From Tubiluchus corallicola (lineage: Eukaryota > Priapulida > Priapulimorpha > Priapulimorphida > Tubiluchidae): 64,000 nucleotides of DNA. The stretch covers positions 124,001 through 188,000 of the forward strand of contig JAQGDQ010000232.1 in NCBI GenBank assembly GCA_030141605.1, given 5' to 3'. Within the stretch, counting starts at the first letter, position 1. Each line of letters begins with the position of its first letter. The notes under the pieces are model-generated. The model searched no databases. It saw only the letters and a list, made by a program, of their open reading frames with translations, and had not been told where the DNA came from. Both the position numbers and the translations under genes were made by a program. Positions 1 to 59,869 of this stretch are shown here, one piece after another.

Positions 1-3000
1 CAGGGGACAATCCTGATGCTCCAGCACCAAGGGAAATGATTGATCTTGAGGTAGCTACCTGTTGTTCTTAATATTCTGTTTTACTCAAAAGGCTTAATGC
101 CTAAAAAATTCCTATGTTGGTTAGTGGTATTCACTGTTTCGTTTTTCCAAGGCTGCTTTTTTACGGAATAGTGCTAACCCACAGTATTATACACTCTTGT
201 TAATTTTTGGCCTCTCCGCCATGGAAGGTATGCGACAGTTTTTACATTCTTACCAATACTAGTTTAACTATTTTTATCACTTGTACTCTTTTATCACGTA
301 ACTTTTTTCTTTGTGTTTTTATTATCTCTTGTTTCTGTGCAGTATTTTGTTTTAAATGAGGTCAAGTTCTCTCTTCTTTTCCTTATTTTTTTATAATCTT
401 ACAATGTTTCTTTCAGGCATCATTTGAAAAACTGGAAACAGAAATGACGGAGGCAAACACGAATGCAGAAGCCTTGAGACGAAATTATTTAGAACTCACA
501 GAGCTTAAACACATTCTTCGTAAGACCCAAGTGTTTTTTGAAGAGGTATGCTTTTAAACGTTAACAGTACTAAGAAGTAAATGTTACTAGGCATTATCAG
601 TGTTTTAACTTTACGTGTTTTATTTTTTTAATCTTGTCAATAAAATATTCGAGGGATTTCTTGTGTGAGAGATTTTTTCCAGCTGTTTTTTGGATAATTT
701 GAAGGTTAATGACATTTTTGTTAGTGGTGTGTTGTTGGGAAGTCACAAAAAACATGTTTTAGACACTTGAAAAGATTTTGTGCCTTTAAAGATAGCATAT
801 GAAATGCATATATAATCATCAAGCATTTAATTTATAATGCAAAACTGGGGCAACTTCAAAAAAAAAAAAAATGAAATAAAATAACAAAAACCGCAATAAT
901 TTGTCCAGTAAAGTAGGGCATCGCCACTCCACTTAACTTATTAGTACCGTTTCCGATAAAATGTCTTTTTTAAATTGACAGCGAATTACAGAAGACTTCT
1001 ACTTGCTTATACATGTAAATGTTTTTATAGATGGGACAGGGAGTAGCAGAGACCCTCATAATGACTGCAGCTGTTAGCACTCAGCAACTAGTTGAACCTT
1101 CCCCGCAACCTGCTGTTAGAGTTCCAAAAGCCTCTTCCACTGGAGGTGAACTTCAGCTGAGGTACACTCTACGATAATGTGTAATTAATTAATTATTGAC
1201 TTATTGGAGCTTTGAAATTAACATCTGTTTGAGCAGTTTTCAATAAAAAAAGTTGCAAAAGCATTATTTTTGTACTTTTGTACTAGCTTGCTGGTATGAC
1301 AATCTATTCCTGGTTTGATGTAATTTTCGTTTTTCGATGGTGGGTGTTTAACTGTTATCTAATATGTTTCAATTTAAAAAATTTGTTACCCTGGTAGCTT
1401 AGTAGTAGCTCCTAGCTGTGTCATAGTACTGATGCGATTTTTAGGAACTAAAACTATTTCTATAAGTGTGTAATTTCTCTTTTGGGCAAGCAGTTATTTG
1501 AAAAGCTAACCGCATTAATGTAGTTCATTATTTGCATTTTTGTATAGTTTTGTTACTGGTGTTATCGCTCGTGAACGAATACCATCATTCGAGCGACTCA
1601 TGTGGCGAGCAACTAGAGGCAATGCTTATCTGAAGTTTGCAGAAATTGAGATTCCACTTGAAGACCCAACAACGGTATAACTCTTTTACATTAGTTACAT
1701 TTTAGTAATAACAGGTACTTTCTGCCAGAACGTAAATACAGTTTACTTTTCATATTAATAGATAAACCACAACACAAATTATTATGCATTTATGGATTTT
1801 TGAAAAAATTAAAAATTTAAATAATGTGGAGATGTGGCACTAGAATATAAATTAAGTGCTCCAAGTATCGTCCCATATTTATAAGTAGCGAACACTGTGA
1901 TGTTTAAGACCATCGTACAGGTGATATTCCTCCTATGTATCACAAATGGCATGATTTTGGTTTATTGTTTATTGCATTTCACTTTATAGGGTTATCAAGT
2001 CAACAAATCTGTCTTCATCGTTTTCTACCAGGGCGAACAACTGAAGACGAAAGTTAGAAAAATTTGCGAAGGGTTAGTGTAGTAACGGCTAATGTTTGCT
2101 CTCTATGACCATGTTAAGTTGATAAAACTGAGTGTGAAAATCATACTGAACGATTTTCATTTCAAGGGAATTTCACCACAGCAGAGTGTATGTAATGATA
2201 ACTTTCATTTAGCTTTGTTATTTCAAATAAAAAGCTGTGGTTAAGATTTGAATTGACATCCGGAGTACGTAATCATATCCACACAGGGTGTACCTTTTAC
2301 CTTCTCTGTTTGCTACAACAGATTGGGTGGATAGTAAACGTTGGTGATCCATACCCTATTGTAATTCTTAAATGTTAAATTAATGGTCAACTCAAAGTAG
2401 GATTGTGTTGCATTTCTACAAACATTTCAAAAGCTGTAGCATCTGTAAGTTCAAAACTAAACAATAATAAATGTTCCAAAAGTACATTTTTGTCAAAAAA
2501 TTGCAGGTTCTGATGTGTCTTTTTTATATTTCCCGATGGTGATACAAAATGAAAATTTAGATTAATATTGTGGACCGGTACTATATTTACCAACTGTATT
2601 TGCAAGTAGATATTGTTATATCTAAATACAAAATAAGAAAAAAATATTTAAACATCTACTGTTTTAGATAGAGTTGGAACTGGACTAGAAGTCCAGATCC
2701 AGAGATTTGGGTCTCTTAAACTTTTAGCAATGTGTAGGGCTATATTATGTTTCTTTAATAAACCGTATTTTCTGTCCTTCTTAGCAAATCTACACACGAG
2801 CTTTAATAAGACTCATAGCTCCAATTAAAAATCTTATCAAGTAAAAACGTGTTTGTTTGAAAACTTAAATAAAACCGTATTTGGATGAATTTCAGCACAC
2901 CTAGAACAGATGCTGTTCAATCTTTTCAGGTTTCGTGCAACCCTTTACCCCTGTCCAACAACACCACTTGAGAGACAGGAAATGGCTATCGGTGTCATGA

Positions 3001-6000
3001 CACGTATAGAAGACTTAAATACTGTAAGTCTTAAAAATAAATTTAAAAATTTGTCTGCACTCATGTAGATGAGTTATATTTCAATTGAATATGAGGAGCG
3101 TGTTTATTATTCACCTTTAAAACATTTGATTGGCTGGCTTTCATACATGTTTTGTTTTTTATCGTTTCTCATGGTAGTTAGCTAAATAATTTTTATAACA
3201 AATTTTGGATGTGTTTTGTTGCTTTAAGTTAACTGTTACAATTTAGTTTGATTAAGAACCTTAAGTTCTCTCACTTACCTATTTTCTGTTTTCTATTCTT
3301 TTACTGTAAATATTATTATTTGATAAGATTGCATTTTCACTATTAGCTTAGTTTGCTAGACCAAGGCTTATATACAGGATCATATATAGATTAATCTGAA
3401 AATAGCACTGAAATATCAAGCATCTATAAGCATAATTGTGAAGCATAAGTTATAACTACTGTAGTACTGTGTGTTTATTGCTATATTATGTGAAAATAAA
3501 AATTCTTGAATTCTTTAACTCTTGAATTTAAAATCATAATATGTCAATTTACGATAGATAATTAGTGAGTGGTGTTCCCAAATTCAACTTCTTTCTCAAA
3601 GCCTACTGTTGAATTTGGTAGATGACCACTGGTATATGCCTATACATTACACCAAACTTGTGAAAATTGAGTGAAAGCTTATTTAGGTTGTGCAAAGGTT
3701 GCGCACTCTACTTTTTGCATTAACTTTATTTAATACGCCTAATTCAGTCAGTTTTCTCTTACGCCTTAGCATATTTAAAAGTTGTGCATTTACTAATTAG
3801 CATCCTGCCCACTGCCATCCATTGATGCAATTTGACACTGAAGGAAGAAGAGAAATTTTGATTTTTGTTTGTTATTTTACGAAGTTTTTTAACGTGAGCA
3901 ATGGTTCATGATGGCCATTTATCTTTAGGTTATAGGACAGACAGAAGATCATCGTCATCGTGTGCTGGTAGCTGCTGCGAAGAATATCAAAGTCTGGTTC
4001 ACCAAGGTGCGAAAGATCAAAGCAATATACCACACGTTAAACCAGTTTAACCTAGACGTTACCCAAAAGTGTTTGATTGCAGAATGCTGGTGTCCTGTGA
4101 TAGACTTGGACAAGATACAGATAGCTTTACGGCGTGGGACAGTGAGTATAGGTTTTGCTATTATTTGTTATGTTACATGCAACAGGTGCCATTTTTAAAA
4201 AAATGCTATTTTATAAACGTCACTGTATTGTAATACATGTTGCCTTGCTTAGTTTTTATTATTCAGCTGTGTTGGTAAGTGACAAATATCAGAAATTATC
4301 TGGTATTGCTTTCTTTCATACTACATTATCACTAGGTTCATTTACTGCAATGATAGAGGGTGATCACTGATCAGCCTCTACTAATTTGTTTAGTGTAAAA
4401 ATTAATGTACTAGTTACATGAAAAATTCTTTATTTGGCCATATGGGCTATCAAGGATAATTTTTATGCTAATCTTATTTACGGATGAACAGGTAAAGGAC
4501 TCCAAGTTACAGTCGCTGTGACAACAAACATCGTTAGCCATAAGGTATTTAAGCAGCAGTTAATGAACATAACAACACTGAGATGCTACAAATGAATAAC
4601 ATAGATAATGACTTTTGCAGCGATTTAGGTGGTTGTGAAATTCAAACCTTTACTGTGAGTAGAGTAGCATCCATTGTCCATTACCTTAACTACGCGGCGA
4701 TCACTTATAAATGATGAATAAGAAATAAATTAGGAGATAAAAATAAATAACAAATAAATAAATTAGGTAAGATGATACTGATCAGTTTGCCCAAGATTTT
4801 GAAAGACAAGCTATTTTTATTCCTATTAAGGTTGTTTTTTTGTTTATTGCATGTGTTTTTATCTATTATTAACTGTTTTTAGTTCTATTTTATATTATAC
4901 TATAAACATTATAGATGGTATGCACTGTGCAACACTGTTAAAACTAGATGTCAGTATCACAGATTGCTAAAAATACAGTGTTTAAATTGATTTTTGCATT
5001 TTTGGTGTTTATATGTTTAGTTGCCGACTTGCACAGATACTTATATGACGTTCATTGATTTGTGGAGAGTTCTTGATCTAATAAAACTTCCAGGCAACTC
5101 TGACTTTAAAGCGTTATCGTTAAATAATTTACCAGTTAATAATTATAAACTACAAAGGATTTTGTGTTTTAACATTAGTTCTTTATCATTAATAATATCA
5201 AAATATTATTTTTCTCTGCCATGCAATTATTCCCATTTTTTTCAATTTGTATACATTTCACCATTGTTTGATAAGTGGTTATATGAAGAATTGTGAAATC
5301 ACAAATGATTTCCTGGTATTTAGAATTCGATGGAATTCTCGAGTACTTGATTTTGCTTTCAAAATTGGGAGTAGTTGTTGACTTATTACATGAAATTCTG
5401 CCTGGAGAGCAAATACATCTACTGGATGATGAGTTTACCTTTCTAACCGTGCATTTAGACTAAACATTGTAGAGATTCAGTTTCATCATCTTTGTTTACT
5501 TAACCAGATTCTTGCTACTGCATTCATTATATTTCATTAGTCAACTTTAATAAAAAAATGAGTGTACTAATTCAAAGGGCATTTTTACTGTCTAGCTATT
5601 ATTCTTATAAGTCAACATTTCAAAAAATTTTTCAGAACTGATGGCAAATAAAATGTACACGTGTTATTGGCGATGAAATGTACCCTCTGGTGCAATTGTG
5701 CTGTAGTAACTCACCACAGCAATGATAGTGATAGTCATTGATTTCTTCTGAATTTACTATCGGATCAAAATCACATACAAAACCATGTTGCCACTAGACT
5801 AGAACAGAGCAAAGAGTTTACCTGCATCATACTGAATTGTTTTCAAGTTCTAATTTACAATTTTTATATTCATCTGAACTGTTAATAGCATTTTCGTTAT
5901 GCATGTGATTATTTTTGCTAAAAACACCCAGTTTTTAAATATGACATTTCTTAATGGAAAAGGTTGTAAAGCATATCCGACCTACACTTAAAAGTCATCA

Positions 6001-9000
6001 GTGATGGCTGCGAATCAGGCAATTGACTAGTCCATATTTTATCAATTTTTATAGCAAAATTTATTTTACAACTCATTATTTTTTCACAGTCAGATATTGT
6101 GAGCACATTATAATAATAGAATTTAGTAAGAAGCAACTAATGGGTTGAATTTTTAAGTAATTAGTTTGATTCTGTCTAAAAATGTTTGCATTTGGACTTG
6201 ATGTAGAAAATGCTGACCATTTTTGTCTGTGGAACAATTAGCATTTTTTTTGTTGTTTGTAAGGAGAGAAGTGGTGCCTCTGTACCGTCCATTTTGAATC
6301 GTATGCAGACTAAAGAGAATCCTCCAACCTACAACCGCATAAACAAATTCACAGCCGGATTCCAAAACTTAGTTGATGCTTATGGAGTCGCTGATTATAG
6401 AGAAGTTAATCCAGGTACAATTGGTTTCTAGTAAGGAGATTAAGGATGGAACACTCAATATGTTGTTTTCGAAGTCACTGCATTAGATCAAAACATACAA
6501 TCCCTACCTCACAGGATAGACAGAGTTCCCGGCACTGTGTTCTATCAACTTGAAGGGGAAAAATGGAATGTCAAAGTATACCCCAAATAACTTTCCGTAC
6601 AAAGTTGTAACATGAAATAATTTGATCAAATCAATTTTTTACATTAATTTTCCCAAAAGGTCAGTAGTCACTCGCGCAAAGGGGCTACAGTATAAGCATG
6701 CAGATATAAATGCATGTCCAGAGAAATAGAATTCAGTTAACTAATTTGTTTGTGGTATGAGTCTTATTTATATTAGCATTTAAGCTTTTCATATATGCTT
6801 TCAAGTTTAGTTTCAAGATTGAATAAATCTGTGTTTCTATCATTGACAAATAGTTTTGGAAAATTGTTGTTCATTTATTTGCAGCTCCGTACACTATTAT
6901 CACCTTCCCATTCATCTTTGCTGTAATGTTTGGTGATGCTGGACATGGAGTGCTCATGGCTTTGTTTGCTTTGTGGATGGTGCTAAAAGAAAAACAACTA
7001 ATGGCAAAGAAAAGTGATAACGAAGTATTAACAATAAAGATGCCACACCATAATAATTTCATTTAATTTAAAAATTATGTTGATTTACATTTTAAGTAAT
7101 TGAGAAAATCTAAATTTAACTCGAATAGTGCAGTAAAATCGACTCAAAATTGATTTACTTCCAAAAAAATGTGCAGAGTTTTCTGTCAATTTTTGCTTTT
7201 CATAAAAACTGCACCCAAGCAAATTTTATCACTGTTTAAAAATAAGCAGTTATATATTTTGTTATTAATGAGGTATAAACGATTTTCTTCACACATATGA
7301 GCTGTGAATTAATACAATTTTATTCTCTGTTACAGATATGGAACACATTTTTCGGGGGTCGCTATATTATACTCTTAATGGGAATTTTTTCCATTTACAC
7401 TGGCCTTATTTATAATGACGCTTTCTCAAAGTCACTCAATATCTTTGGCTCTAAGTGGGCATCAAATTGGACGTAAGTAGAGTACTAGTCTGTTAGATCT
7501 GGTTTATGCCAGTGCCTGCAGCTGGTTACAAAATACATTATTATAGTTGTCTCACCGGAGTAAGCAACTGTAAAATTATCGGTTATATCTATCCGGTTCT
7601 GTCTATGTGTTTGTCTATCTGTCTGCCTGTCACCTGTTTTTCCTGGCTGTGGAGTAATGTAGAAAGTTGGTGCGGGTGGATTAGACTCGGACTCTATAAA
7701 TTTTTAGGTCAGTTGGTGCAGATTTGGATTTTTTACAACTTTTTAATGATTCGTGTATTACAGCTCATGCTGCAATCTTCTTACACAGCCAAACTAATTA
7801 CGACTGGCTAGTAAAGTATCAGATAACAAGAATCAGTAACACGTGTTTTCTTCTAAAACCAGGCCATTATGGTTGCTGTACATGTTTTCACAGAGTTTAG
7901 TATCATTTAAAATTGGAAAATATGAATATACTGTTTGATATTTCATTTACTGTGGGCATTGTTATTTAAAGCTTTAAACTCATGGGCATTGTGAGTTGGA
8001 CATATCATTTAAAAATTTTTCACTTAAAAATGAATCTTCCAGTTTTGTCTGTATCGAATTGTAACATGAACTAGCCAAATACTCTATATGACAGTAGTTG
8101 CTTTGTCACTAAAATTTAGTATCACTTAAAGTGTCAATGCAGAAAATAGTTCTTTACAGTAGTCTCAAAATGTACCGATCTCATTGGGGCAATAAATCTT
8201 TTTAACCCGTTTGGAATATTCAGCTGTTGGCCTGTGACCTCTGACTCTTGGCTACAGCTTCAAGAACAGTGCTGCTTGTGATAATCCCTCGAGTCATAAG
8301 CATTTCACACCTACAAGACACTGTTTAAATATTAGAGCACAGTGTAACAACAGATGTCTTCAAGGTGTTAAAACTGACATGAAGTTTTTTACCGCTTTTT
8401 CACAAATAGAGATACTTATCTACATTTCAATATTATTAGGAGAAAATAAGCACATGTAAGTACAAAATGTGCAAATGAAGAGCTGTTGAATTTGGACATG
8501 CTTTATTATTTTAGATATACTTTTAACTAAAGTTTGCTAAATAAGCTGCTTCTTGATGAAAGAGCATCGAATACTGAAGCCGAACCATCTGTGAGGCTCT
8601 GACATTTGCTTAAACATGTGCATATTTAATATCAGAAATTAATAAATTTGTGATATTTTGCTTATAGGGAAGAAGATATAGAGCACCACGAATCCTTGCA
8701 AATGTGTCCAAATCGTTATAATTGCAGTGATGTGCAGGGAAAGCCAATCCACAAGGATTACTTTGGTTATCCTTATCCATTTGGAATTGATCCGGTATAT
8801 CCAGCTCTTGTTTGCTACTGTTTTTCCTACTGAAAATTTTCAAGTGTTTGTGAAATAAAGTCATGTTAAGCTTTGGTTGTTAAGCTTTCTTGCTATGCAG
8901 AAACTGTGCGTTCTTGATGGGAAGTCGAGCAGTACAGTTATAGATTCCAAGGTGCCAAACTGATTCTTTTTTTGCTTTCTAAGACCAAATACTTTTTTGT

Positions 9001-12000
9001 TTTATGCCTGTACTTTCGAAATAATTTTACTGAGTGACTTGAAGGTAGAGGTTATCATTACATAGCTTACCAGACTTGTGAATTGTTTTTTAGATCTGGC
9101 AAATTTCGGTAAACAAGATCACTTATACAAATTCTTACAAGATGAAACTGTCTATCACTCTTGGTGTTGTTCAAATGTTGTTTGGCATTGTACTCAGCAT
9201 TTTCAATCACAGGTAAAAACATGCTTCAATTTGCTCTTTGTTCAACAAAAAGGCGCGTTGTTGCTCTATCACTTTACTAAATTAAATTTGTTTTAGTCAA
9301 ATTTTTATGAGTTTACAGTTCACCGGATAACAAGTTTTTGCAGTTTCCATGTTTTAGCATACTTGTGAAACATGTAACATTGGTCATGTCATCAGGTTTC
9401 CTATTTAGAAATGTTTTGTTTTTGTGTTTTTATTGTTTAACAGTGTCCTCTTCTTGTAAGTTTTATTTTTATTTTTTTAGTTTTTCGCCTGTGTGTCTGT
9501 GTATCGAGTGTTACCTGTTACCTATCCACTTTGTACCTAATGGCACATAAGCCTCTTCTACTCTTCTCTGTCAACAGTTTGCCTCATTTCAGCTTCATTT
9601 GCTTGCTAGCTGCTGCAGTACTGAGTGAAGGCTTTCTAAAATTGAAGGAATGGTAGATAAGTGGATAAGTAGATGAAAGTTTAATATTTAGGGTGGTTAT
9701 AGCTGAATGTTCTACTCTTGTTTTCTGTTGAATCCGTTTCCAATCAGTGAAATTTTTTCCAAGGTTGTTTTTGAAAAACAAACCTTTGCCTGTGATACAT
9801 CCTACTGTCCACTTTATCCAGCTATCATAATGGAGTCAATGATACGTGTTGGACTCTTTTATAGAATACACCCAGTTTTATATATTGAAAAAACTATTTT
9901 TAGTTCTACCAGTCAGTGTTCTTTGTTCTTGCTATGTGTATATGAAGCTGCATGTATACACAAAACGCAAGTGTTTAACTGCTAAGGTAGATTAGCCATT
10001 CACCTGAGTGAGCAGTTTCTTAATTGTAGAGGATTTTTATAGCTTAAATGATTCATTTTGTTTTCAGGTACTTCAAACGACCATTGAATATCATTGCAGA
10101 ATTTATTCCCCAGCTCATCTTTATTAACTGCATATTTGGGTACCTTGTCATTCTTGTCTTTGTCAAGTGGATTGCTTACACTGGAGAGGATGCAGCATGT
10201 GCTCCTAGCCTGCTGCTAGGATTGATAAATATGTTCATGTTTAAGTATGTTCCTGATGATGCTGAACCATGTTCACAGAGGAACATATATCATGCACAGG
10301 TTTGTATAGAGATGTAGTGAGAGTGGGTGAGATCTTCTTGCCCATTCGTATGTATAAATGTAAACTATGCTGCGACAAAAAGTATTTTGTTTTCTATGAA
10401 CATGGTAGCTATTTTGCTCATTGAATAATGTTGACTGACTTTTAGTGCTTGAAAAAGGCACTGACATAATTATAGGTAAATTTTGCAAGAGAATTGATTT
10501 AAGACCGTAATGTGCCCTTACAGAAGTCTGTTTTCTGGTTCCAAAACAATAAAAATTTTGTCGTTGTGGGACAGCAAATGTCGTTAGAAGTAGTCTTTAT
10601 TTTGTAGACAAGAGAATCAAATCTGAAAGTCAGGTGACAAAACTTTGTCAAAGTATTCTGTATTAAAATTAATTGGAATGTCATCTGAAGTCAATATCTG
10701 TGATATTTAAAATTCCCACATACAACACATATGTAGGGCCAATTTATATTTATAAGTCTGCTTGGTGCAAACACTTTCTTGGACGTTTCAGAACAGTACA
10801 TATCTTATTTTTTGTACATTGTAGAACTGGATAATGCAGATTTACATTAGTGGATCATTAAGAAAATTAAATTCAAGTGTTAGGAAGGATTAACATTAAG
10901 TGAGAGAAAAACACTGATAAGAGAACATGAAGTGAGAGAAAAACACTGATGTGAGAACATGAAGTGAGAGAAAAACACTGATGTGAGAACATGAAGTGAG
11001 AGAAAAACACTGATGTGAGAACATGAAGTGAAAGATAAACACTGACGATAGAATGTGAAGTGAAACACTGAGGAGAGAACATATACTGAGAGATAAACAC
11101 TGATGTGAGAACATCAAGTGAGATGTAAACACTGATGAGAGAACATGGAGTGAGAGATAAACACTGATGTGAGAACATGGAGTAAGAGATAAACACTGAT
11201 GTGAGAACATGGAGTAAGAGATAAACACTGATGTGAGAACATCAAGTGAAAGATAAACACTGACGATAGAATGTGAAGTGAAACACTGAGGAGAGAACAT
11301 ATACTGAGAGATAAACACTGATGTGAGAACATCAAGTGAGATGTAAACACTGATGAGAGAACATGGAGTGAGAGATAAACACTGATGTGAGAACATCGAG
11401 TGAGAGGTAAACACTGATGAGAGAACATGGAGTGAGAGATAAACACTGATGTGAGAACATGGAGTAAGAGATAAACACTGATGTGAGAACATCGAGTGAG
11501 AGGTGAACACTGATGTGAGAACGTGGAGTGAGAGATAAACACTGATGTGAGAACATCGAGTGAGAGGTAAACACTGATGTGAGAACATCGAGTGAGAGAT
11601 AAACACTGATGTGAGAACATGGAGTGAGAGATAAACACTGATGTGAGAACATGGAGTGAGAGATAAACACTGATGTGAGAACATGGAGTAAGAGATAAAC
11701 ACTGATGAGAGAGAACATGGAGTGAGAGATAAACACTGATGTGAGAACATCAAGTGAGAGGTAAACACTGATGAGAGAACATGGAGTGAGAGATAAACAC
11801 TGATGAGAGAACATGGAGTGAGAGATAAACACTGATGAGAGAACATGGAGTGAGAGATAAACACTGATGTGAGAGCATCAAGTGAAAGGTAAACACTGAT
11901 GAGAGAACATGGAGTGAGAGATAAACACTGATGAGAGAACATGGAGTGAGAGGTAAACACTGATGTGAGAACATGGAATGAGAGATAAACACTGACGAGA

Positions 12001-15000
12001 GAACATGAGTGAGAGAATATGGACTGAGAGAACATGAAGTGAGAGATAAACACTAATGAGAGAACATGAAGTGAGAGATAAACATTGATGAGAGAACATG
12101 AATTGAGAGATAAACACTGATACGAGAACATGAAGAGAAAGATAAGCACAACCTTTGCTTCATGGGAGAACATGAAGCGAGAGATAAACACTGATGAGAG
12201 AACATGAATTGAGAGATAAACACTGATACGAAAACATGAAGAAAAAGATAAGCACTGATGTGAGAACATGAAGCGAGAGATGAACACCGATGAGAAAAAT
12301 CTGCAAAAAAGTAATGCTTTTCCTTTCAACATAATCAACTTTTAATTTTTGTTCAGTAGTGTATTTTTAACGTATTGTATCTATTTTCTTCAGCCAGCGC
12401 TGCAATACATTCTAGTTGTCCTTGCTGCCATTTGTGTTCCCTGGCTTTTGCTGTTAAAACCTTTTGTACTGCGACATAGACATCTAAAAAGCTCTACCAA
12501 GGTGAGGGATACTTGATATGTTTTAATTATCGTAACATCTAAAATTGGCTAATCTGAGTCAAGGATATTAAGTTGAGGGATACCTAGACAACTTGGACAA
12601 ATACTTATCATTTCAATAGAATATGTCTAATCATTTACATTACATGTGTTGTGTATGATAATTCAACATTGCAGGACATATGTAATATGATTGAGTATTT
12701 GACTGATTAGACAGTTTAATGGAATTTTCCCTGTTTTCTTTTTTGGGTTATTTCTCTTTCGCAACCAGTTTCAACAAGTTTAGTGTAAAAATAATCAATG
12801 GAGACTTGGAAATATGAGATTGAAACCAACCTTGATTTCTATTTCTGGTACCATCTTGTAAAAAGTGTTGTCTTTTAAAGGTGTAAAAGGGTTTAGTAAC
12901 TTTCTGAGAAGCAATAATTGCCCTGTATAGCCTCTCAAAGATTAACTTAGTGTTTGAATTAAGATATTTGTCTGTATCATAGGGTGCAATATTAAGCGTA
13001 ATCTTGTCCATTTTTTAATGATACATGTACCTACTAAATTTTACTGCATTAAGATTCTAACTAATTGTCTGATCTATTTGCATTATCACTATTCTAATGC
13101 TGCATTAAGCTTGATATAGCAGTAGCCCCCATATGCATATATATGTTTCATAAAATGGGATTTCTGACTGAAGTTTTTGAGATATACACACTAATAGTAG
13201 TAATAGTGTTACTATTTAATTACTACTAGAATAACAATATCCTTCTGTTTTTCAGAGGCAGCTAGTTGAAAGTGGGGAACTTCGTGATCCGGCAGGCGTA
13301 CAAACTACTGTGATTGATAATGATGTTACTCAGGTGGTACAAGAAGGGAGCATTCCAGAAAGTTCTACTGAGCATAGACATGAAGAAGAAGAGGTGTGTT
13401 TGGTCACTTACTTGCATTTTAATATTACATTCATATTATTTAAACAGTAAAACAGAGAAAACTGCTTGAAGTTCAAATCTGTAGCTGAATAGAGTTTCAT
13501 CATACCAACAGTTCATTTGAGTAACAAACAGGAGAGCCTGGGCTCTTCAGGAGTATTACTTCTATCATTCGTTACTTATGTCAGATTTGCAGATGTGATA
13601 AAAATTCTCTTAACTGATGATGTAACAGCATCGTGTGAGCAATAAATATCAATGTGATTTTGTAAATGTGCATCAGCATATTGGATTAATTATTTATTTT
13701 ATTATTCACAATCAGTTAATTTGCTTGTGTAAGGCCTCCCTTACTACAGCAGTTTTGATGTGAACGACACAGTTCTGGTTTCAGTTTTTCTCTGATGCCC
13801 TGATCTCACCCATCATCAGCTACAGACATGATATTTAAATATGATATGAAGTTCAGCATTTTCTGTATTAATTTTATCTACAAAAATGTTGCAAATGAAA
13901 CACTGCATATAGTTTTACTACCTGTCAGTTAGTTTCCTTTGTTAACCTAGTAAGATGTCTTCATACCAGCACTTTTACCAATTTGCATTCTTACATAAAC
14001 AGCTTCACTTAACCTTTTTTCTTTCAGTTTGAATTTGGAGAGGTGTTCGTCCATCAGTGCATTCACACCATAGAATATTGTCTGGGATGTATCTCACATA
14101 CAGCGTCATATCTACGACTCTGGGCTCTTAGTCTAGCCCATGGCCGTGAGTGTTTTCAGCAGTTCCCACTTTTCAGTTTGGCGAGTTACCACTGAACTTC
14201 ACCTTGTTAAGAATAGTCTTAATTCTATTATTTCATCTTTAGAATAATTTTTCTGAGTGCTTTGTCCTCATTGTTTGCGATGAAACAAAATCCAAACCAA
14301 AAAATACATTTCAATTTGCCCAACGCACTCTGGCACTGACTATGTGCAAAAAACAAACTTTTGCTATAATAATTAACCTACCTTGCTGGTGGTGAATAAA
14401 AGTGTTAACATCACAGCACTGTCCTGCTTCTGATAGGAAAAAAATCGTGAAACTGAATTGTAGAATTACATTTGTTCCCTACTGTTGGTTGCGTTAAATT
14501 GCTGAATTAAACTGGTGGCATGTGTCAAGGATTAGACAAGATAAGTGAAACTTTACATTTTGTCTGAACGTAATTGTATAATGCAGGTAACAGACAAAAG
14601 GAATAGGTTTCGCATAAAGTTTGATTTAAGCTTCTATGATAAGATGAGATACTGAACCAGCAGAGGCGTCCTAGTGTTCTAACCACATTTGGGTGCATAT
14701 ATGCTCTCCCTTAGTAAGAGAATTAGCTAGATACATATAGCAGTTAGAACCACACAGAAGCAGTCTTTCTGGGAGTCGTGCATCCATTTACTAACCAGAC
14801 CCTGGCACTGCTTATCTGTCAGGTCCAAGCACTCATTGTGGTTATTCTGCTTTTCCTAAGCATTTCTTTTCTTCTAAAGAAAAGTGTATATCCAAAAAAG
14901 CAAAAACTTATTTTAGGACTTCTCAATCATACTATAAAAGTTGGTTTTGAAGAATTATTATTTTACAGAGCTGTCTGAAGTTTTATGGTCCATGGTGCTG

Positions 15001-16482
15001 CGAATTGGTTTTTCCATGAATGGCTGGTTTGGTTGCATTGTCTTATACTGCGTATTCGCTCCATGGGCAGTGCTCACTGTAGGAATTTTACTAGTAATGG
15101 AAGGGCTGTCAGCTTTTCTGCATGCTCTTCGACTGCATTGGTATACCCGTTTTTTTATTTATACTACTTATATTATAATTGCAGCTTAAGAATCCATTGC
15201 TGAATTTTTTTAACTACTTACTCGTATAGTTGGTACTTTGTTAAGACATTTGAGAAACCCTTTGATAAACATATTCGCAGGTGCTGTCCGAACCAGTCCG
15301 GATGCTTCTCACATACCAGCTAACTTAGTACATTTTCAAGTCTGGCTTTAAGGAAAAGGATACCCTATGAGCTAAAAAGAGAAAAATTTTGTTAATTCCA
15401 AACTAAGTGCATTTATTACAGCTTGTATACAACTATTAAATTTTTCAATTTGTTTCAAACTCGTATGGTTATACTTCTTATTTCCATAAGTTACTTATTG
15501 ACATTGTAAACCAGGGGTGTGCAAATTATCTGACTAGCCGGGCTACATTAAACTTTCCCGCAATTCCTGTGGGCCACAGGCAGTTTGATCAAGGAGCCAA
15601 GTACAGAAAGGCCTAATAACGATTTTTTTTTGCATCCGACCCACGTACATCATTACTACTACACCCAAGAAACTATTTTAGAAGTTATTAAAATTTCTTT
15701 TAAAAACCATATATTTCTACTTTCAGGACAGATAGTGGTAATTTCATTACAATGCATATTAGTAATGTGTATCACACTGTCTGTGTAGTACAGTGAAATT
15801 AAGCTACAACCATCTTGTAAGGGTTAATGGCATCTGATCTAGTAGAAAAAACTACCCACACTATCTTTGGGATCATGGCATGGACTTCAGCTGGATACAC
15901 TCAATTAATCGCCCGGGCCGCACTTTCATTAGGTTGACAAATCTTCTCGCGGGCCGCACAAATTCTCTCGGCGGGCCGCAATTTGCACACCCCTGTTGTA
16001 AACAAACACAGAAGCTTTCTGTGGAGATGCTTAAATTTGCATGGATTGTTACATTTGACAGAGAAATGTTTGAGGTCCCAGCTCAAGCGTTGAATGTGGG
16101 GCCTTCTTATTGCCGTTCATATTTGATAACTGCTGAACATTCAATACAAAAAATAAAAGTTAATTGATAAATGGTACTAAAATTGTAAATATTTTAGACT
16201 TTACTCATTGTCAGTGTATGCAGATAAATAAGATATTATTAATTTATTTACTTGCAGGTATTTAACTTGGAAAAAATATGAAACAGTAAGATATCATTTC
16301 GTTTCATATAGAAAATTTCATTCGGCGATAGTTGAAGTTATCTCTTTTTATGATAGACAATATTTGCTTGTTGTTACAGGGTGGAGTTCCAGTCCAAGTT
16401 TTACAGTGGTGTTGGCTACATGTTCATTCCATTTTCGTTTGAAGAAATTTTGAAAGAGGCATCTGATGAACCTGAATTATGA
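1..16482 (+). CDS. ATP6V0A: V-type proton ATPase 116 kDa subunit a, 18 exons, 5' end missing
   Basis: Subunit a of the membrane Vo sector of the proton-pumping V-ATPase; it holds the proton half-channels and links the rotor to the stator. I joined these exons by GT-AG borders and continuous phase: 1-50 (partial), 417-545, 1031-1161, 1548-1674, 1990-2072, 2930-3023, 3929-4141, 6264-6414, 6885-7024, 7336-7472, 8668-8794, 9094-9212, 10068-10299, 12394-12501, 13256-13393, 14028-14145, 14969-15140, 16380-16482 (stop TGA 16480-16482). They give about 790 residues with no stop or frameshift; the family is about 830-850, so only roughly the first 50-60 residues are missing. The first eight exons encode the cytosolic N-terminal half ([34 protein letters not shown]). 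The rest encodes the multi-spanning membrane half ([62 protein letters not shown]). The Arg codon at 14115-14117 in YLRLWAL matches the essential channel arginine (Arg735 of yeast Vph1). An NWT sequon in the luminal loop is also present in vertebrate homologues. I cannot tell which isoform this is. Confidence 0.97.
10891..12298. repeat. 32-bp minisatellite array in a V-ATPase intron
   Basis: About 44 head-to-tail copies of a 32-base unit of the form GAGAGATAAACACTGATG followed by TGAGAACATGGAGT, with frequent TGTGAGA/AGAGAGA variants and a few shorter or longer copies. The plus strand is almost entirely purine plus a little T and C. Variants are not randomly placed: the same short runs of variant units recur (the stretch near 11030-11110 reappears near 11250-11330), which points to block-wise duplication. 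The array fills most of the intron between exons 10068-10299 and 12394-12501. Because 32 is not a multiple of three, all frames cycle through the array and long spurious open frames result. Confidence 0.95.
14028..14145 (+). CDS. ATP6V0A: V-ATPase subunit a exon with the essential channel arginine
   Basis: This exon of the same gene is set apart because it encodes the functional core of the membrane domain. It reads [16 protein letters not shown] followed by [11 protein letters not shown]. The Arg codon at 14115-14117 corresponds to the arginine known to be required for proton translocation. The exon ends in phase 1 (a single C) and completes a Gln codon with the AG that opens the exon at 14969, giving the conserved LAHGQLSEVLW. 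This confirms both splice sites. Confidence 0.95.
15512..15995. mobile_element. hAT-type MITE in the last V-ATPase intron
   Basis: A 484-base element bounded by inverted ends. The left end begins CAGGGGTGTGCAAATT; the right end is its reverse complement (AATTTGCACACCCCTG) and the match continues loosely into GGCCCGCC-like bases. It is flanked on both sides by the same 8 bases, TTGTAAAC (15504-15511 and 15996-16003). An 8-bp target-site duplication with CAGGGGTGTGCAAA-like ends is the hallmark of the hAT superfamily. There is no transposase reading frame, so it is non-autonomous. Repeated GGGCCGC motifs lie near the right end. Confidence 0.9.
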
Positions 16483-21635: not shown

Positions 21636-21681
21636 TTTATTGAGGTTGCTGCTTCTGCGTATATGCTTGTGTCATGCGGTT

Positions 21682-21992
21682 TTAAGTTGAATCAGCTTTG
21701 TTAACAGCCATATTCCGATGAAGTGCTTCAAAGATCATATTGCCAAATGGCTGGTAATTACGTTTGCCAAACATTGAGCCATATATTCTCCTTTTTCCGA
21801 AAATTGCTCCCTGAAACCGGCGATCTACTGAATGGCTGGTGTCACTTTTCTTGCCAAACGGGGATGCTTGTATTGGTGCCCGACGATTGATTTCACCTGG
21901 CTCGCGATCTGCTTCATGTCCTCTTTTTGCTGTTCCAGTATTGCCGTCACCATTGTCTTCAAAATCAAATTGTCTTCTAGTGTCTCTTTTAC
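21682..21992 (-). CDS. Neuropeptide precursor, second coding exon (APIQASPF, FQGAIF and IYGSMF amides)
   Basis: Opens after TTTTGTACAG in phase 1 and reads GKRDTRRQFDFEDN, onward to the TAA at 21682-21684. It carries most dibasic sites: KR, RR, KK, RR, KRR and KR in about 80 residues, with three well-formed amidation signals (SPFGKK, AIFGKRR, SMFGKR). Reading the exon in either other frame meets stops or gives no processing sites, so the frame is secure. Confidence 0.85.
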
Positions 21993-24900
21993 CTGTACAA
22001 AATAAATAAATTCATTATGTGTGCTTCTTCTATTCCCTTCGATTTTAGTATGTAGACAAAGCGTTCTCATATGTGTACTTTTCCACATTATGGTAAATGA
22101 ACAATACATAGCAAAATACTTAATATACATTTATCATTAATCTAACAGAAAGATGTTGCGGGATAACGGTCTAATCTTTCTGTGCTGTCAATAAAAAAGC
22201 ACAATTCTGTAACCAGAGCTTCGCAGGCGATATCACATGAATGAAACACTCCTTCAAAACAGTGGCATAAAACTAAACTAAGTACAATTGTCTTTAACTT
22301 TTGTACTCATTTCCATTATTATAACTCTCATAAACACAAATTATATTAGTAAAGTTAGAGTATTACAATCATAATATTTAACAAAATTAAACAAGTATTT
22401 TCAACTTTTTTGTTATTCTACGTTCTGCAGCAAGACTAGTGTCAAAACATAAAACTTTCTATGACTGAAGTAGCCGTTGTTTTTTCAGTGTTGCAGTTTG
22501 GTGGTTAAAGTAGCCATTGTTTCAGTGCTGCAGTTTGGTGGTTAAAGTAGCCATTGTTTCAGTGCTACAGTTTGATGGTTAAAGTAGTCATTGTTCCAAT
22601 GCTGCAGTTTGATGGTTAAAACGGTCGTTATTTCATTTTAAAGTGCTGCTGCAGGGTGGTTTTAAGTTTCCTTCATGCAAGGTTCTCTCTTGTAAACACG
22701 AAAATTTGAATGTTTTATTCTGTAAACAAACTTTAAGGAACAACTTTAATGCTTCCAACATTCAAAATAATTCAGTGAATGTGCACACACGTTGACTGAT
22801 ATCACTAACAGACTGCTGCATTTTCAATTCATAATTATTGGTATGGATAACTTTAGATGTTGCGCCGCTTGATGTGCGAGTATCTAAGAGAACCCATAAG
22901 CCAATTATTTGTTGTGATAGGTATCCAGTTTTAGGGATCGTCTCTTAACTTTGAATAACTAGAAAAATGTAAAACGTTGAGTCACAAAACTTGCAAGGGT
23001 AGACATCTGGGGCCTTGGCAATGATATGGTGAGCGACTAAAACTGTTCAAAGGATCAAAAACGATGGACAAAATTCATTTTTTTTTATAAAAGTATACCC
23101 TACACTATGCACCATAATACCTATGTAAGAATTTAGATATTTTGGTGTAGATGTGCACATGGGTGCTCAGAATTGCTGTAGGTACGGTGAGCCTTGTCGA
23201 AAGGGTCACAGTAATAGGCACAGAAATGTGAAAATGCCAGGGTAGGGTAACGAAACTTTAAGGGCAGATACTTGTGGTAGGGGGATAGATAATAACGTAG
23301 TGAACGGTGATCTCATTCTTGATAGGATGAAGGACACAGGAGAGACACGAAACTTCCAAGATAGACTAGGGTAGGGTCAGCAGTAGTGCGGTTAAAAAGC
23401 CAGAATTTTTCGAAAGGCACGAGAGAAAATTTGAGCAAACTGGTCAGTCACACATGAGTGAACCGCACTGAGTTAGGTATGGTCAAATAATAGTTAATCA
23501 CGAGCGCTATGCACACTGGCGAGTCACACATGAGAATAATAATCTACAGTTTTTGACAGGAGTAAATTAAAACCACACTGGACCAGGCATAGTCATGAGA
23601 TAAATAGGGGCATGCTCACGGACTTGGATATGAATTCATTCAGTCTTGTTTTAATAGCATCAGAAATTAGTTTTGTTGACCCTAGAAATGTGTCTTGACT
23701 TTTTGGCGAATAAAGCCGAAACGTAATTTATAACTTCATTTTTACATGAACTTACTCTGCATCTTTTTGTTTGATTGCTCTTAATGTAACATAATTTTGT
23801 TGCCATTGTTTCAGTGCTACAGTTTGATGGTTAAAGTAGTCATTGTTGCAATGCTGCAGTTTGATGGTTAAAACGGTCGTTATTTCATTTTAAAGTGCTG
23901 CTGCAGGGTGGTTTTAAGTTTCCTTCATGCAAGGTTCTCTCTTGTAAACACGAAAATTTGAATGTTTTATTCTGTAAACAAACTTTAAGGAACAACTTTA
24001 ATGCTTCCAACATTCAAAATAATTCAGTGAATGTGCACACACGTTGACTGATATCACTAACAGACTGCTGCATTTTCATTTCATAATTATTGGTATGGAT
24101 AACTTTAGATGTTGCGCCGCTTGATGTGCGAGTATCTAAGAGAACCCATAAGCCAATTATTTGTTGTGATAGGTATCCAGTTTTAGGGATCGTCTCTTAA
24201 CTTTGAATAACTAGAAAAATGTAAAACGTTGAGTCACAAAACTTGCAAGGGTAGACATCTGGGGCCTTGGCAATGATATGGTGAGCGACTAAAACTGTTC
24301 AAAGGATCAAAAACGATGGACAAAATTCATTTTTTTTATAAAAGTATACCCTACACTATGCACCATAATACCTATGTAAGAATTTAGATATTTTGGTGTA
24401 GATGTGCACATGGGTGCTCAGAATTGCTGTAGGTACGGTGAGCCTTGTCGAAAGGGTCACAGTAATAGGCACAGAAATGTGAAAATGCCAGGGTAGGGTA
24501 ACGAAACTTTAAGGGCAGATACTTGTGGTAGGGGGATAGATAATAACGTAGTGAACGGTGATCTCATTCTTGATAGGATGAAGGACACAGGAGAGACACG
24601 AAACTTCCAAGATAGACTAGGGTAGGGTCAGCAGTAGTGCGGTTAAAAAGCCAGAATTTTTCGAAAGGCACGAGAGAAAATTTGAGCAAACTGGTCAGTC
24701 ACACATGAGTGAACCGCACTGAGTTAGGTATGGTCAAATAATAGTTAATCACGAGCGCTATGCACACTGGCGAGTCACACATGAGAATAATAATCTACAG
24801 TTTTTGACAGGAGTAAATTAAAACCACACTGGACCAGGCATAGTCATGAGATAAATAGGGGCATGCTCACGGACTTGGATATGAATTCATTCAGTCTTGT

Positions 24901-25583
24901 TTTAATAGCATCAGAAATTAGTTTTGTTGACCCTAGAAATGTGTCTTGACTTTTTGGCGAATAAAGCCGAAACGTAATTTATAACTTCATTTTTACATGA
25001 ACTTACTCTGCATCTTTTTGTTTGATTGCTCTTAATGTAACATAATTTTGTTGCATTAATGTTTTCTCGTTTCTTGTACTACTTTTGTGATTTTCAATTC
25101 ACTAATATCAGACAACAATGATACACCTCATTTATATTTTTATTCTACGTGGTTTAGTTTAATCCATTTGGTACATTACGCATTCAGTCATTCAATGTTC
25201 TTACCTCTGTAACCGTGAGAAACTAGAACCTTCTCAAAATGAGGGCTAATTGGTGATTTTCCGAAATAAGGGACAATTTCTGGGTAAATTTCTTCCATGG
25301 TATATGGTACGTCTCTTCCGAATATGGAGCCATGGATTGGCATGCCTCTGGCATACCTCTGTTGGTAATCATCATTTAAACCGTCTGACCCAAAAATATC
25401 GACTACAGCTTCTGGATCTTGTCTCTCTGATCTATACATCCTTCTATAGGGGCTGTAATAAATTTCTTGGCTTTTCTGATAGTTGTTTGGAGATCTAGGC
25501 AGCAAATACACCGGGGAAATAAAGATTGCCAGGAGAAAAACTGCTATTATAATTCTCGATAAATCTGTTTGCATTGTTGAGCT
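21682..25583 (-). CDS. Secreted multi-peptide neuropeptide precursor (xGSIF/GAIF/GSMF-amide type), two coding exons
   Basis: Exon A is 25583-25205 (ATG 25572-25574) and exon B is 21992-21682 (stop TAA). The donor AGA-G/GTAAGA and acceptor GTACAG/GT fuse in frame to a 226-residue protein. Residues 1-24 are a signal peptide (hydrophobic IIIAVFLLAIFIS). Predicted processing: GMPIHGSIF-G at 77-86 between single Arg residues; a GYR-G-KR site created by the splice junction (121-126); RR-APIQASPF-G-KK at 160-172; RR-FQGAIF-G-KRR at 181-192; IYGSMF-G-KR at 193-201. Glycine before basic residues predicts C-terminal amidation. Further degenerate copies (VVDIFGS, VPYFGKS, YQPFGN) lack full cleavage sites. 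There are no cysteines after the signal peptide. The ATG lies 9 bases after an acceptor (TTCTTTCAG), so a non-coding 5' exon is expected upstream. AATAAA occurs at 21641-21636. Neuropeptide-precursor class: confident; the exact family: not recognised, with a SIFamide-like C-terminus as inference. Confidence 0.85.
22470..22622. repeat. 37-bp minisatellite, four copies
   Basis: Four successive copies of a unit like GTAGCCATTGTTTCAGTGCT followed by GCAGTTTGGTGGTTAAA, 37 bases each (the first about 40). The last two copies are included in the 1.25 kb duplication that starts at about 22551. It lies in the intron of the multi-peptide precursor gene. Confidence 0.85.
22551..25053. repeat. Near-perfect 1.25 kb tandem duplication in the peptide-gene intron
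   Basis: Two direct copies, about 22551-23802 and 23803-25053, with a period of 1251-1252 bases. By eye I find only a few differences: GTTCCAATG against GTTGCAATG, TTTTCAATTCAT against TTTTCATTTCAT, and one T in a homopolymer. Neither copy has an open frame of note or recognised transposon ends. The duplication lies wholly between the two coding exons. It could be recent in the genome or an assembly artefact of heterozygous haplotypes. Confidence 0.95.
25205..25583 (-). CDS. Neuropeptide precursor, first coding exon (signal peptide and GMPIHGSIF-amide)
   Basis: Begins at an acceptor (CTTCTTTCAG/AGCTCAACAATG), has the start ATG at 25572-25574 and ends GGTTACAGAG/GTAAGA at 25205. It encodes residues 1-123: the signal peptide, an acidic and tyrosine-rich spacer, then YAR-GMPIHGSIF-GRD and the spacer that contains VPYFGKS. 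Confidence 0.85.
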
Positions 25584-27711: not shown

Positions 27712-28119
27712 TCAGGCGTGGTTTCCCAGTATCCGTGTGGAGCATGCTGCAACTTGTCGTACGCAATCTGTGTTTGGTTTGTGCACACATTTAGCTACGA
27801 TTCTTAGGCAGTCCCTGAACAATTGTCGTAAAACTGGGTTTGATTCATGGTGTTCTACCATGTAGGGTTGGTCAGAGAAAAGGATATGCTGCTGTCTTAG
27901 GTTTGGATCAGAGCGTTTGCCAAACACGCCGCCTTGTTGTAACACGGGTAATCGTCGCCTGTAGTAATTACGCAGCGCTTCATCATTGAAATTGCGAAGC
28001 GCTTTGACTGAGACCCAGGCGGCTGGTTTGTTAGACTGTGCCAGTACAAGACTAGTGAGAGAAAGTAAAGATAGAAGAAAACACCCAAAAAGTGCAGTAG
28101 ACGATGCAACAGTTGTCAT
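27712..28119 (-). CDS. Secreted neuropeptide precursor with LPVLQQGGVF-amide and two Cys-x6-Cys motifs (SIFamide-precursor-like)
   Basis: A single coding exon of 135 residues. Residues 1-27 are a strong signal peptide (LFGCFLLSLLSLTSLVLA-Q). One peptide is framed by full processing sites: RRR (54-56), LPVLQQGGVF (57-66), Gly67 as amide donor, Lys68-Arg69. The tail has four cysteines, 104, 111, 119 and 126, spaced C-x6-C-x7-C-x6-C (DCLRIVAKC and DCVRQVAAC). From memory, arthropod SIFamide precursors carry a GSIF-G-KR peptide followed by a tail with one C-x6-C pair. Here the tail has two such pairs, and the peptide sits further from the signal peptide. The ATG lies 7 bases after an acceptor (TTCTTTTCAG), so a non-coding 5' exon is expected. 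Secreted precursor: confident; kinship to SIFamide: inference. The gene is about 2.1 kb upstream, in transcriptional sense, of the multi-peptide precursor. Confidence 0.85.
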   Translation of the reverse strand: MTTVASSTALFGCFLLSLLSLTSLVLAQSNKPAAWVSVKALRNFNDEALRNYYRRRLPVLQQGGVFGKRSDPNLRQQHILFSDQPYMVEHHESNPVLRQLFRDCLRIVAKCVHKPNTDCVRQVAACSTRILGNHA

Positions 28120-28126
28120 TTTGTGT

Positions 28127-34019: not shown

Positions 34020-34311
34020 TTGCGCGTTCAGACCAGCTAGCTTTCTCGCCAAGCAAACTCACCAAGTAACTCGCGAGCGTGTTCACACTAAAGCTTACTG
34101 CAAGTTACTTTCAGACGGTAAGCGTGAGCTAACATTTCGCTGCGAGAAATGTCGAGCGTAACTCGCCAAGGCGTTCATACTGGACAGGAAGTCATCACGC
34201 AGCAGAGACTTTGCAATTTCTTGCTGACCATAACTCGCAATGCAGTTCACACTTACGAGTTTGGCGTCAGAGAGAAAACTCGCGACAGAAAACTTGCTAA
34301 TGCAGGCGCCG
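34020..34311. mobile_element. GGCGCGTTC-family MITE, copy 1
   Basis: Starts near TGCGCGTTCAGACCAGCTAG and ends near GCAGGCGCCGTAA. The reverse complement of its right end (AGCAAGTTTTCTGTCGCGAG, then TTTTCTCTCTGACG and AAACTCGTAAGTGTGAACTG) closely matches the left end of the element at 48220. The interior repeats TTCACACT/GTTCATACT and CTCGC motifs. TAA follows the right end. There is no coding capacity; plus-strand open frames here are incidental. Confidence 0.7.
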
Positions 34312-37300
34312 TAATTCTTGCCGCTACTGTGGACGTAGGGAACTCACCTTATCTGTCTTTGATGTTTTTGTAGACGTCGTTAAACGAAATTGTAAATATC
34401 TGTTATATATATATATATAAATTCTAAGAAAATTGTATCATTCCAAAGCTTAGAAATAAGTTCAGATTAAATAATTTTTTTATGTTTCTACAGGTCAATT
34501 CAGAATAGGGCTCACCTAATCTTTGGTTGCAGTAGAGCACAAATAAATTTAGGTTGTCGATAATTGTCGATTGATATCTAATTTTCGACATTACTATAGA
34601 TCCACATCTATCAGCGAATTTAGGTCCTATCACCTATTCATGTGAGTTTAGGTTCTAAAATTTTTATCATGCCTACGGTTTTGACCACAGCAAATAAAAC
34701 CCCACGACCCAACTGTTCATTTTCTGAAAAGCCACGTTAAGTAGGAACATTGATCCAGTATTCTACCTTTATGTGAGATGAATGAAATGCGTGCCTCACC
34801 GTGTATCAGATGTTCCTTAATTTAACCCTACGAAAATTAATGCACTTTTACCCATACGGTTGCTATGCATCGTTTACCTCAATCTGCTTATACAAAGTCG
34901 ATATGAAAGAATCGCGTGCCAGGAATTAGATAATTCGCTGTAGCAAGTTGCTTTTTAGTCAGTCCTTTAAGTGCCGCGCGTTTTCGCTTTCATTTTTTAG
35001 TTCATTTTATATCTTATAGTTTTAGTTACGGCAATACCGCTAGGGTGTTAGACTTTGTTCTGTGGAAGGAAAAAATGTAAACTTTCAAATAGCATTCGCT
35101 CAAAGAGACGTGCTCACTGTACGCACTGTGCACTGTGCAAACCTATATTCAGATTGATTAAGTCATTATTAGATATTTCATTAATATCTTAAATATGTTT
35201 AATATATAGAAAATATTAAATATGGCGTAGTTTCAGAGTATCGTATTTAAATATTTTTTCGCTTAGTTTGAAGCATTCTAGGGCATAAACGCCAGTTTGC
35301 TAAATGTGTTTCCACGGCCATCTTGTTCTATTAAAGGAAAGGCCAAGCCTTCTGGAATGTTAGGCACGCTTCGATGTCTACGGAAAATGTTAGAAAGATT
35401 TAGTAATTAGTAATAAAAATGTAATATGCACCTTGTGTAATTAGTAAAGTCACTTTAAAATCGCAACCACTTCACACTTAGGCGCTACCATTCTTCCACC
35501 AATGACGTCATTCATCGACTGATGAAAAACAGCGCATTGCCAATTTCCGTCAAATGTATAAGTTTTTGCAAAAAATTTGATGGCTAATTTGTGATATTTT
35601 TGCATCAACATTAGGTAAGCTGCAGAAGTTTGAATTATTTTAAGCTGCGTACGCTCACAGAAAGCCAAAACACACTTGTGAAAAGTCGCGCAGCCCACCA
35701 GTTATGTCAAATTTTCAAGTGAATGATGGCTACTCAAATCAACACTTTCTTTCAAAGAAATTTCGCTTATGCCGACACTATAATGACAGAATTTTAATGC
35801 TTTTACCTGAAAGCAGATTCGAAAAGAGACTGGACTTAAAAAAGCATTCATTCATTGGGGAATGACCTATATTAAAATTTTATGAAGAGAAAGCGTGGAC
35901 TACGGGATTTAATCTACAGGATTTAATAACGTAAAAGTGTTTATTTAGAAAGGCTGCAGAAATTGCGAGACGTCTGTTTTCCTTCTCAAGTCGCTGGAGA
36001 CTCCGTTATACATAAAAGTACAAAATGGTGTTTTCCACAAACAAGAGTGTTGAGAAGTTGTAATGGTACATCTCATACTTGTGTTTCTACACCTGGAACC
36101 ACGAAGCTTTTAAACTGCAACTAGGTTAGGCGTACAACATGAACAGATATTAAAGCTGGTCGAGGTAAGCTGATGCTAGAAAAGAGCAAATTGTTCAAAA
36201 TTCTGTAACATAGTAAAGGACAGATACTTCATGGCCATAGCGCAGTCGCACAGACTTGAAGAATCTTAATTCTAACTCTGTCATTAATTCTAATACACTG
36301 AATGAAGGTCAGAAAGAAGAATGAACATAGATAAAGCTAAAAAATTTGTCTTGAAATTTTAAATCGTTTTAACAGTAAGTAGTTTGAAACCACTTGAGAT
36401 AACATTGCGTAAAATTTGAGAAAATAGTCAGAGCATTCGTAGCACACTCTTCTCAAACTAAACAAAAGTATAAATTACTTTATGTTATGTTGTCAATAAA
36501 ATCAATAATATGTTTTTGTGCAGTGGTGTATACTGGATTGATACAGTGACATTTTACCAATTGTCGAGCGAATGTTTTAAATTACTAAGATTTTCTATTC
36601 TAGTAACATAAGCCTTTCAAGCACTTAAGCGTAATGCTAAGTAATATAACTCTGTGTGGAAAGTTTTTTGGCGCATACTTTAAAATTGCCATTTCTTCCC
36701 CTTTAAATAAAATTAATATTTAATTTTACTAACGACTAACGGCAAACGACTAAGCCAAGCGATTTTTACAGTGTTTGACGTCACCACGCCTACTATACCC
36801 ACACACGTGTCTACATATTGTAAACAAATTTGTACTGTTGATTGTTATAATTGCAGAATATGTAGGTGATTTTATCAATATCACCTAGGGCCTCCTGTTT
36901 CCTGAACTGAGCGATTTTTACAGGTTGAATTGACAGCCGTATCATTGAAACAATGAAGAAAATCTTTACAGCAACGTGCGGGCAAGAAAAGCCAAAAGCG
37001 TTAACTAATCGTGCACAGATTTCAATACAAACGTTTCCAAGGGAAATATAAGTACGTAACTTTGAACAGGATATCCGAACAGTGTTTGAATTATTCACTG
37101 AAATTCGAAAGAGTGTTGCTTTTGTTCATTCATACAAACATGGTCATGACTTATCTTTTAGATATTTTATTTTTGAAATAAACTTATTTTTTAACCGGTA
37201 GTTTTCTTAAACTTTTTCAATTCAGGATAAGTAGCATGGAATCGCTAATATTATTCTGAAAGTTACACAAGATTTTATGAAGAAAATATTACAATGTCAT

Positions 37301-59745: not shown

Positions 59746-59869
59746 AACGACCAAGAAATAACTTTGATACATATAGAACAACGATGTACAAATGATGGGC
59801 TGCTGACTTAATTCGGTAGTTAATTCACTAAAAAAAATTAAGCCAGTGTAGCGCCTGACAAGGTCTTAC

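Follow-up and report, generated by a model that had tools for sequence, protein, structure and literature searches.

A two-exon precursor with SIFamide-like predicted peptides, and its tandem neighbour, in the priapulid Tubiluchus corallicola

Introduction

SIFamide is strongly conserved in insects (PMC7179676), and in most Polyneoptera a precursor of 71–103 amino acids carries a single copy directly behind the signal peptide, followed by KR; the precursor of the embiopteran R. virgo holds three consecutive SIYamide copies. In protostomes, receptors of the NPFF/GnIH type have SIFamides as their ligands; these resemble the chordate peptides to a very limited degree, and the counterparts proposed for other phyla have very little in common (PMC4062910). 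Nematode NLP-10 activates NPR-35, a receptor placed in the NPFF/SIFamide receptor family (PMC11532408). Here, we describe a predicted multi-peptide neuropeptide precursor, precursor A, and a neighbouring precursor B, both on the minus strand of a 64,000-nucleotide stretch of DNA from the priapulid Tubiluchus corallicola (assembly GCA_030141605.1, contig JAQGDQ010000232.1, positions 124,001–188,000; hereafter the window, whose own numbering is used throughout). The exons, reading frame, processing sites, motif cluster and neighbouring gene are all read directly from the DNA.

With arthropod SIFamide, which most orders of Polyneoptera have as TYRKPPFNGSIF-NH2 (PMC7179676), the two precursors share a GSIF-amide terminus and close variants of it, as well as KR after the glycine in three of their copies. 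Unlike the arthropod form, precursor A has neither the PPFN core nor a cysteine, and its variant copies are scattered along a long precursor, away from the signal peptide. A precursor with more than one derived SIFamide-like copy is also found in R. virgo, although its copies are three consecutive SIYamides in an insect lineage (PMC7179676), and NLP-10 likewise has several mature peptides per precursor (PMC11532408). The bivalve peptide GMNPNMNSLFFamide (PMC4200219), described as FFamide/SIF-like, resembles the peptides of precursor A in being an F-amide, whereas its terminus, MNSLFF, matches those of the two precursors only at chance level (p 0.36). A thin search of open-licence papers, without the supplementary precursor lists (which include priapulids; PMC6188537), brought up no SIFamide described from a priapulid or kinorhynch.

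Gene structure of precursor A

From an ATG at 25574, coding exon 1 (25205–25574) runs to a donor at 25204, where GAG is followed by GTAAGA; a phase-1 GT-AG intron of 3,212 bases (21993–25204) ends in an acceptor at 21993, TATTTTGTACAG directly before GT, and coding exon 2 (21682–21992) closes with TAA (21684–21682). An AATAAA polyadenylation signal lies about 40 bases past the stop codon (21636–21641). Joined in phase, the exons give a 226-residue product with a hydrophobic N terminus, basic sites and glycine amide donors. A preliminary description of this DNA had proposed exactly this splice, from 25205 to 21992, and its coordinates and translation are right.

The splice sites were scored with a model trained on 17 introns of a V-ATPase subunit a gene in the same window, placed by spliced alignment of that gene to a full-length relative (P0002). 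The donor of precursor A scores 10.0, a value reached by 0.11% of the 7,615 GT sites in the window, and its acceptor scores 11.5, reached by 0.18% of 7,155 AG sites (training sites included in both counts). Left out of the training, two of its acceptors had poor scores (-14.4 and -1.2), and one or two training introns out of the 17 may therefore be misplaced. From the donor to the stop codon there are 182 AG sites, a single one of which outscores the acceptor used here, that at 22184 (minus strand, 14.0); reading by eye, its use would leave only four more codons before the frame closes. The top-scoring acceptor of the intron does not keep the frame, and it could give rise to an alternative isoform truncated after the peptide ending in GYR. 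The intron also holds a 1.26-kb tandem duplication (22547–23807 and 23799–25057, 99.6% identical), which is either very recent or an assembly artefact.

Codon use, scored on the V-ATPase codons, ranks the spliced frame best of six over the whole gene and over each exon, and the open stretches of the exons rank 5 and 7 of 76. An unassigned frame at 34128–34370 (plus strand) has a V-ATPase-like codon score of 0.161, the third highest of the 76 and above both exons, so codon use argues only weakly for precursor A. In the 343.5-Mb assembly, the precursor matches its own two exons and nothing else.

The ATG is preceded by nine bases of 5′ untranslated region (25575–25583) that directly follow a likely acceptor, TTCTTCTTTCAG, with a score of 8.7 that 1.2% of the AG sites in the window reach. 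An upstream non-coding exon is therefore likely. The ATG of precursor B stands in a similar position (28120–28126 forms the end of its 5′ untranslated region, after the likely acceptor TTGTTCTTTTCAG, score 10.2, reached by 0.5% of AG sites in the window), and since both start codons lie 7–9 bases past a strong acceptor, the first exon of each gene is probably non-coding.

Predicted peptides and motif cluster

Residues 1–26 (25497–25574) form a probable signal peptide region, with a mean Kyte-Doolittle hydropathy of 3.5 over 11 residues and an uncertain cleavage site. Exon 1, which contains this hydrophobic stretch, also encodes GMPIHGSIF-G-R (peptide and glycine at 25317–25346, with a single basic residue on either side), VPYF-G-K and most of the peptide ending in GYR. 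Three further amides are predicted from exon 2: APIQASPF (21853–21879 with its glycine, between RR and KK), FQGAIF (21796–21816, between RR and KRR) and IYGSMF (21766–21786, between KRR and KR). Precursor A thereby has the general features of a neuropeptide precursor, namely a signal peptide by hydropathy, basic sites, glycine donors and repeated related peptides.

The peptide ending in GYR had been thought to owe its amidation site to the splice junction. The splice divides the glycine codon as G and GT and exon 2 supplies the KR, so the full GKR site needs the junction, but the unspliced frame of exon 1 reads GYRGKNIE before a stop and already contains a bare Gly-Lys. Of the sequences previously listed as degenerate copies, VPYF does precede G-K, a single basic site, while VVDIFG and YQPFG have no basic residue past the glycine and are not predicted amides.

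The motif [GA][GSA]xFG[KR] occurs five times in the stop-free stretches of at least 40 residues in the window, against a mean of 0.05 and a maximum of 1 in 200 dinucleotide shuffles; three of these places are in exon 2, one is in exon 1 and one is in precursor B. Lifting the length limit raises the count over the six frames to six; the additional place (54998–55015) is closely preceded by a stop. No frame of any of the 200 shuffles contained three FG[KR], and the looser count of FG[KR] over the whole window is not exceptional (12, against a mean of 6.2 and a maximum of 13 in shuffles). Together with the splice scores and the basic and glycine sites, the motif cluster gives good support to the secreted multi-peptide precursor split by an intron that had been proposed. 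Its suggested growth by internal repetition is no more than plausible; synonymous positions vary from module to module (TCC/TCA, TTC/TTT, GGA/GGC), so any duplication would be old rather than a recent copy-and-paste event.

Secretion, cleavage at basic pairs and amidation at glycine follow established prohormone processing. Expression, processing, amidation and receptor of precursor A are what we infer from the DNA on this model. Translation of the spliced mRNA would give a preproprotein of 226 residues bound for the secretory pathway, prohormone convertases would cut it at KR, RR, KK and some of the single basic sites, and amidation at the exposed glycines would yield FQGAIF-NH2, IYGSMF-NH2, APIQASPF-NH2, GMPIHGSIF-NH2 and probably the amidated GYR peptide. 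The F-amides would be released as a cocktail of short peptides with the shared core [hydrophobic]-[QHY]-[GA]-[SA]-[IMP]-F-NH2, whose likely target would be a G-protein-coupled receptor of the NPFF/SIFamide type.

Family assignment

The preliminary description could not name a family for these peptides. For five predicted amides (four of precursor A, one of precursor B), the C-terminal hexamers were set against a panel of 20 reference C-termini, 18 drawn from general background, with 2,540 hexamers that precede G[KR] in 150 shuffles as the null. The SIFamide terminus FNGSIF was the best of the 20 (mean 15.6), a value equalled by none of 4,000 random sets of five; SMYamide came second (12.0), NLP-10 third (10.2) and bivalve FFamide fourth, at chance (3.4). 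The order of the references and the 0 of 4,000 did not change when the four amides of precursor A were taken alone (SIFamide mean 16.5) or when VPYF was added as a sixth (12.2). Singly, FQGAIF (p 0.0004), HGSIF (p 0.0008), YGSMF (p 0.0075) and QGGVF (p 0.028) resemble SIFamide. The family can be named after all: among the references, SIFamide comes nearest to the amidated ends HGSIF, QGAIF and YGSMF. The exact GSIF-amide terminus is found in GMPIHGSIF-G-R; the other short amides end in the variants GAIF, GSMF, ASPF and GGVF. We take the NLP-10 peptides to end in PF[SN]GGMY-NH2. On that assumption, their ending P-x-x-G-[SG]-[MI]-[FY] would be like that of precursor A, and the QGGVF of precursor B has the GG too; the presumed Tyr-amide end and the PF before it would set NLP-10 apart from both precursors.

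Several references were set aside. Echinoderm SALMFamide, lophotrochozoan FFamide and the RFamide families fit no better than chance, and FHSWGF, a loose reference, gave p 0.05 with the five peptides and 109 of 4,000 with the four of precursor A.

On these comparisons, we consider it fairly probable that precursor A is a divergent multi-copy member, or a close relative, of the SIFamide/NLP-10 family. Common descent of precursor A with SIFamide, and of precursors A and B, is likewise what we infer. Since a PPFN core and a single-copy layout were looked for and are absent, we call precursor A SIFamide-like rather than an arthropod-type SIFamide.

A neighbouring precursor

Precursor B (27712–28119), which does not figure in the preliminary description, lies 2 kb upstream of precursor A in the same orientation. 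Its 135 residues comprise a signal peptide, probably cut between VLA and QSN, the peptide LPVLQQGGVF followed by G-KR (27919–27951 with its glycine, between RRR and KR, beginning at residue 57), and a C-terminal part with four cysteines in two CX6C units. Its codon score is the best of six frames but weak, at 0.045 per codon, with an open stretch ranking 22 of 76. It has a single match in the 343.5-Mb assembly, and none against phage records by tblastn or against the PDB; an AlphaFold model computed without an alignment (predicted local distance difference test, pLDDT, 54) was not used. The cysteines stand in the tail at 27742–27810 (minus strand) as CLRIVAKC...CVRQVAAC, a CX6C spacing that the tail of arthropod SIFamide precursors has as well.

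The two genes have in common their strand, an acceptor just before the ATG and an amidated GxF terminus, and precursor B is probably a tandem relative of precursor A with one such peptide, LPVLQQGGVF-NH2. They might also be unrelated neighbours, with the cysteine-bearing part of precursor B as its functional product, a reading that we regard as rather unlikely. The likeness is seen only in the last residues of the peptides, nothing else being recognizable by eye, and the tail of precursor B has four cysteines against none in precursor A, but the genes are adjacent, lie on the same strand, share the acceptor-ATG layout and both carry the rare motif [GA][GSA]xFG[KR].

Candidate receptors

A genome search with 7tm_1 (PF00001), in which 147 of 1,297 candidates received a score, gave at least 164 matches, of which 70 were retrieved and four compared with the PDB. 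Two of the four, L033 and L041, are paralogues with 60% identity, each open across the whole 7tm domain, as are many other 7tm_1 matches. L041 scores 158 bits with NPFF receptor 2, 156 with the QRFP receptor, 150 with NPFF1 and 136 with orexin receptor 2, and L033 scores 155 with orexin receptor 2, 149 with NPFF1, 143 with NPFF2 and 140 with the QRFP receptor. By these scores, both would belong to the NPFF/QRFP/orexin group without being decisively SIFamide receptors. The other two, L055 and L064, were rejected as NPFF-type since they are tachykinin-receptor-like, with NPFF receptors scoring lower.

Weighing the alternatives

Precursor A has weak points, and a number of observations weigh against its SIFamide-like reading. 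The signal-peptide cleavage site of precursor A, judged by hydropathy, is not obvious, and GMPIHGSIF and VPYF are flanked by single basic sites only. Taken alone, APIQASPF does not resemble SIFamide significantly (p 0.13), and VPYF shows no resemblance to it (p 0.92). The reference panel was picked, and SIFamide proposed, after the sequence had been seen, so the p-values above are optimistic. The arthropod hallmark (K)PPFN is missing before GSIF, MPIH standing in its place, and the first copy begins at residue 77 of 226, not immediately after the signal peptide. Elsewhere in the genome, FNGSIFG-type searches brought up no convincing canonical gene, with three matches against two for a reversed control; two of the three lie among stops, and the third (L005) is in a 34-residue open stretch with no close splice signal and no signal peptide. 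The hexapeptide GMPIHG recurs in the genome in another gene that looks by eye like a TMEM117-like membrane protein, which we dismiss as a chance match. As to receptors, L033 is nearest to orexin receptor 2, and L041 is only 2 bits nearer to NPFF2 than to the QRFP receptor.

Nor was a relative of either precursor found in protein searches at E up to 10, which required shared words of five residues; as short peptides easily escape such a requirement, this does not show that orthologues are absent. The V-ATPase exons matched 7,820 proteins in the same database with many named animal entries among the matches listed, so the database does include animal proteins, and the description of precursor A as undescribed agrees with the outcome, within the same five-residue-word requirement. 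Pfam and NCBIfam searches with the precursors returned nothing apart from sub-threshold Pfam matches (E 0.13 and 0.14). This missing homology, along with the absent PPFN core, the exact GSIF in one peptide only and the poor fit of APIQASPF and VPYF, would also agree with a real amidated precursor of a lineage-specific family, whose GSIF-like ends are convergent and whose receptor lies outside the NPFF/SIFamide group. We hold this to be unlikely, given that SIFamide and two close kin take ranks 1–3 of 20, with a wide gap to the fourth. That precursor A is no gene, and consists of chance open frames beside splice-like signals, seems very improbable: the lack of a homologue and a codon score that is not decisive by itself would suit it, but the splice scores, motif cluster and polyadenylation signal speak against it when taken together.

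Genomic context

The V-ATPase 116-kDa subunit a gene, the local splice and codon reference, occupies 3–16476 (plus strand) and is complete but for its 5′ end. One of its introns holds a minisatellite (10892–12292) of about 44 copies of a 32-base unit, open in several frames. A tree was built from the window and 41 V-ATPase proteins out of the 120 listed, the named rows chosen having no nematodes, tardigrades, kinorhynchs or onychophorans among them. It places the window with Priapulus caudatus, an ecdysozoan (100/99), and closer still with a transcript contig (97/81); taken by itself, it points to an ecdysozoan worm that is probably a scalidophoran. A major-facilitator transporter (MFS_1, E 5e-8, slightly short of the curated cut-off), by eye of the oxalate/formate type, has exons at 59841–63207 (minus strand).

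Implications

The favoured reading of precursor A as SIFamide-like can be extended, more tentatively, to a rebuilt ecdysozoan SIFamide system, in which tandem ligand genes, one multi-copy (precursor A) and one single-copy with a cysteine-rich tail (precursor B), and the receptor paralogues L033 and L041 would stand in for the single conserved PPFNGSIF ligand and the receptor that goes with it, and would link arthropod SIFamide to nematode NLP-10; we rate this extension as doubtful. On the favoured reading itself, a divergent multi-copy SIFamide-like form in a worm near Priapulus, together with its tandem neighbour, would represent an intermediate form, and precursors A and B would provide concrete ligands for receptors of the NPFF/SIFamide type.

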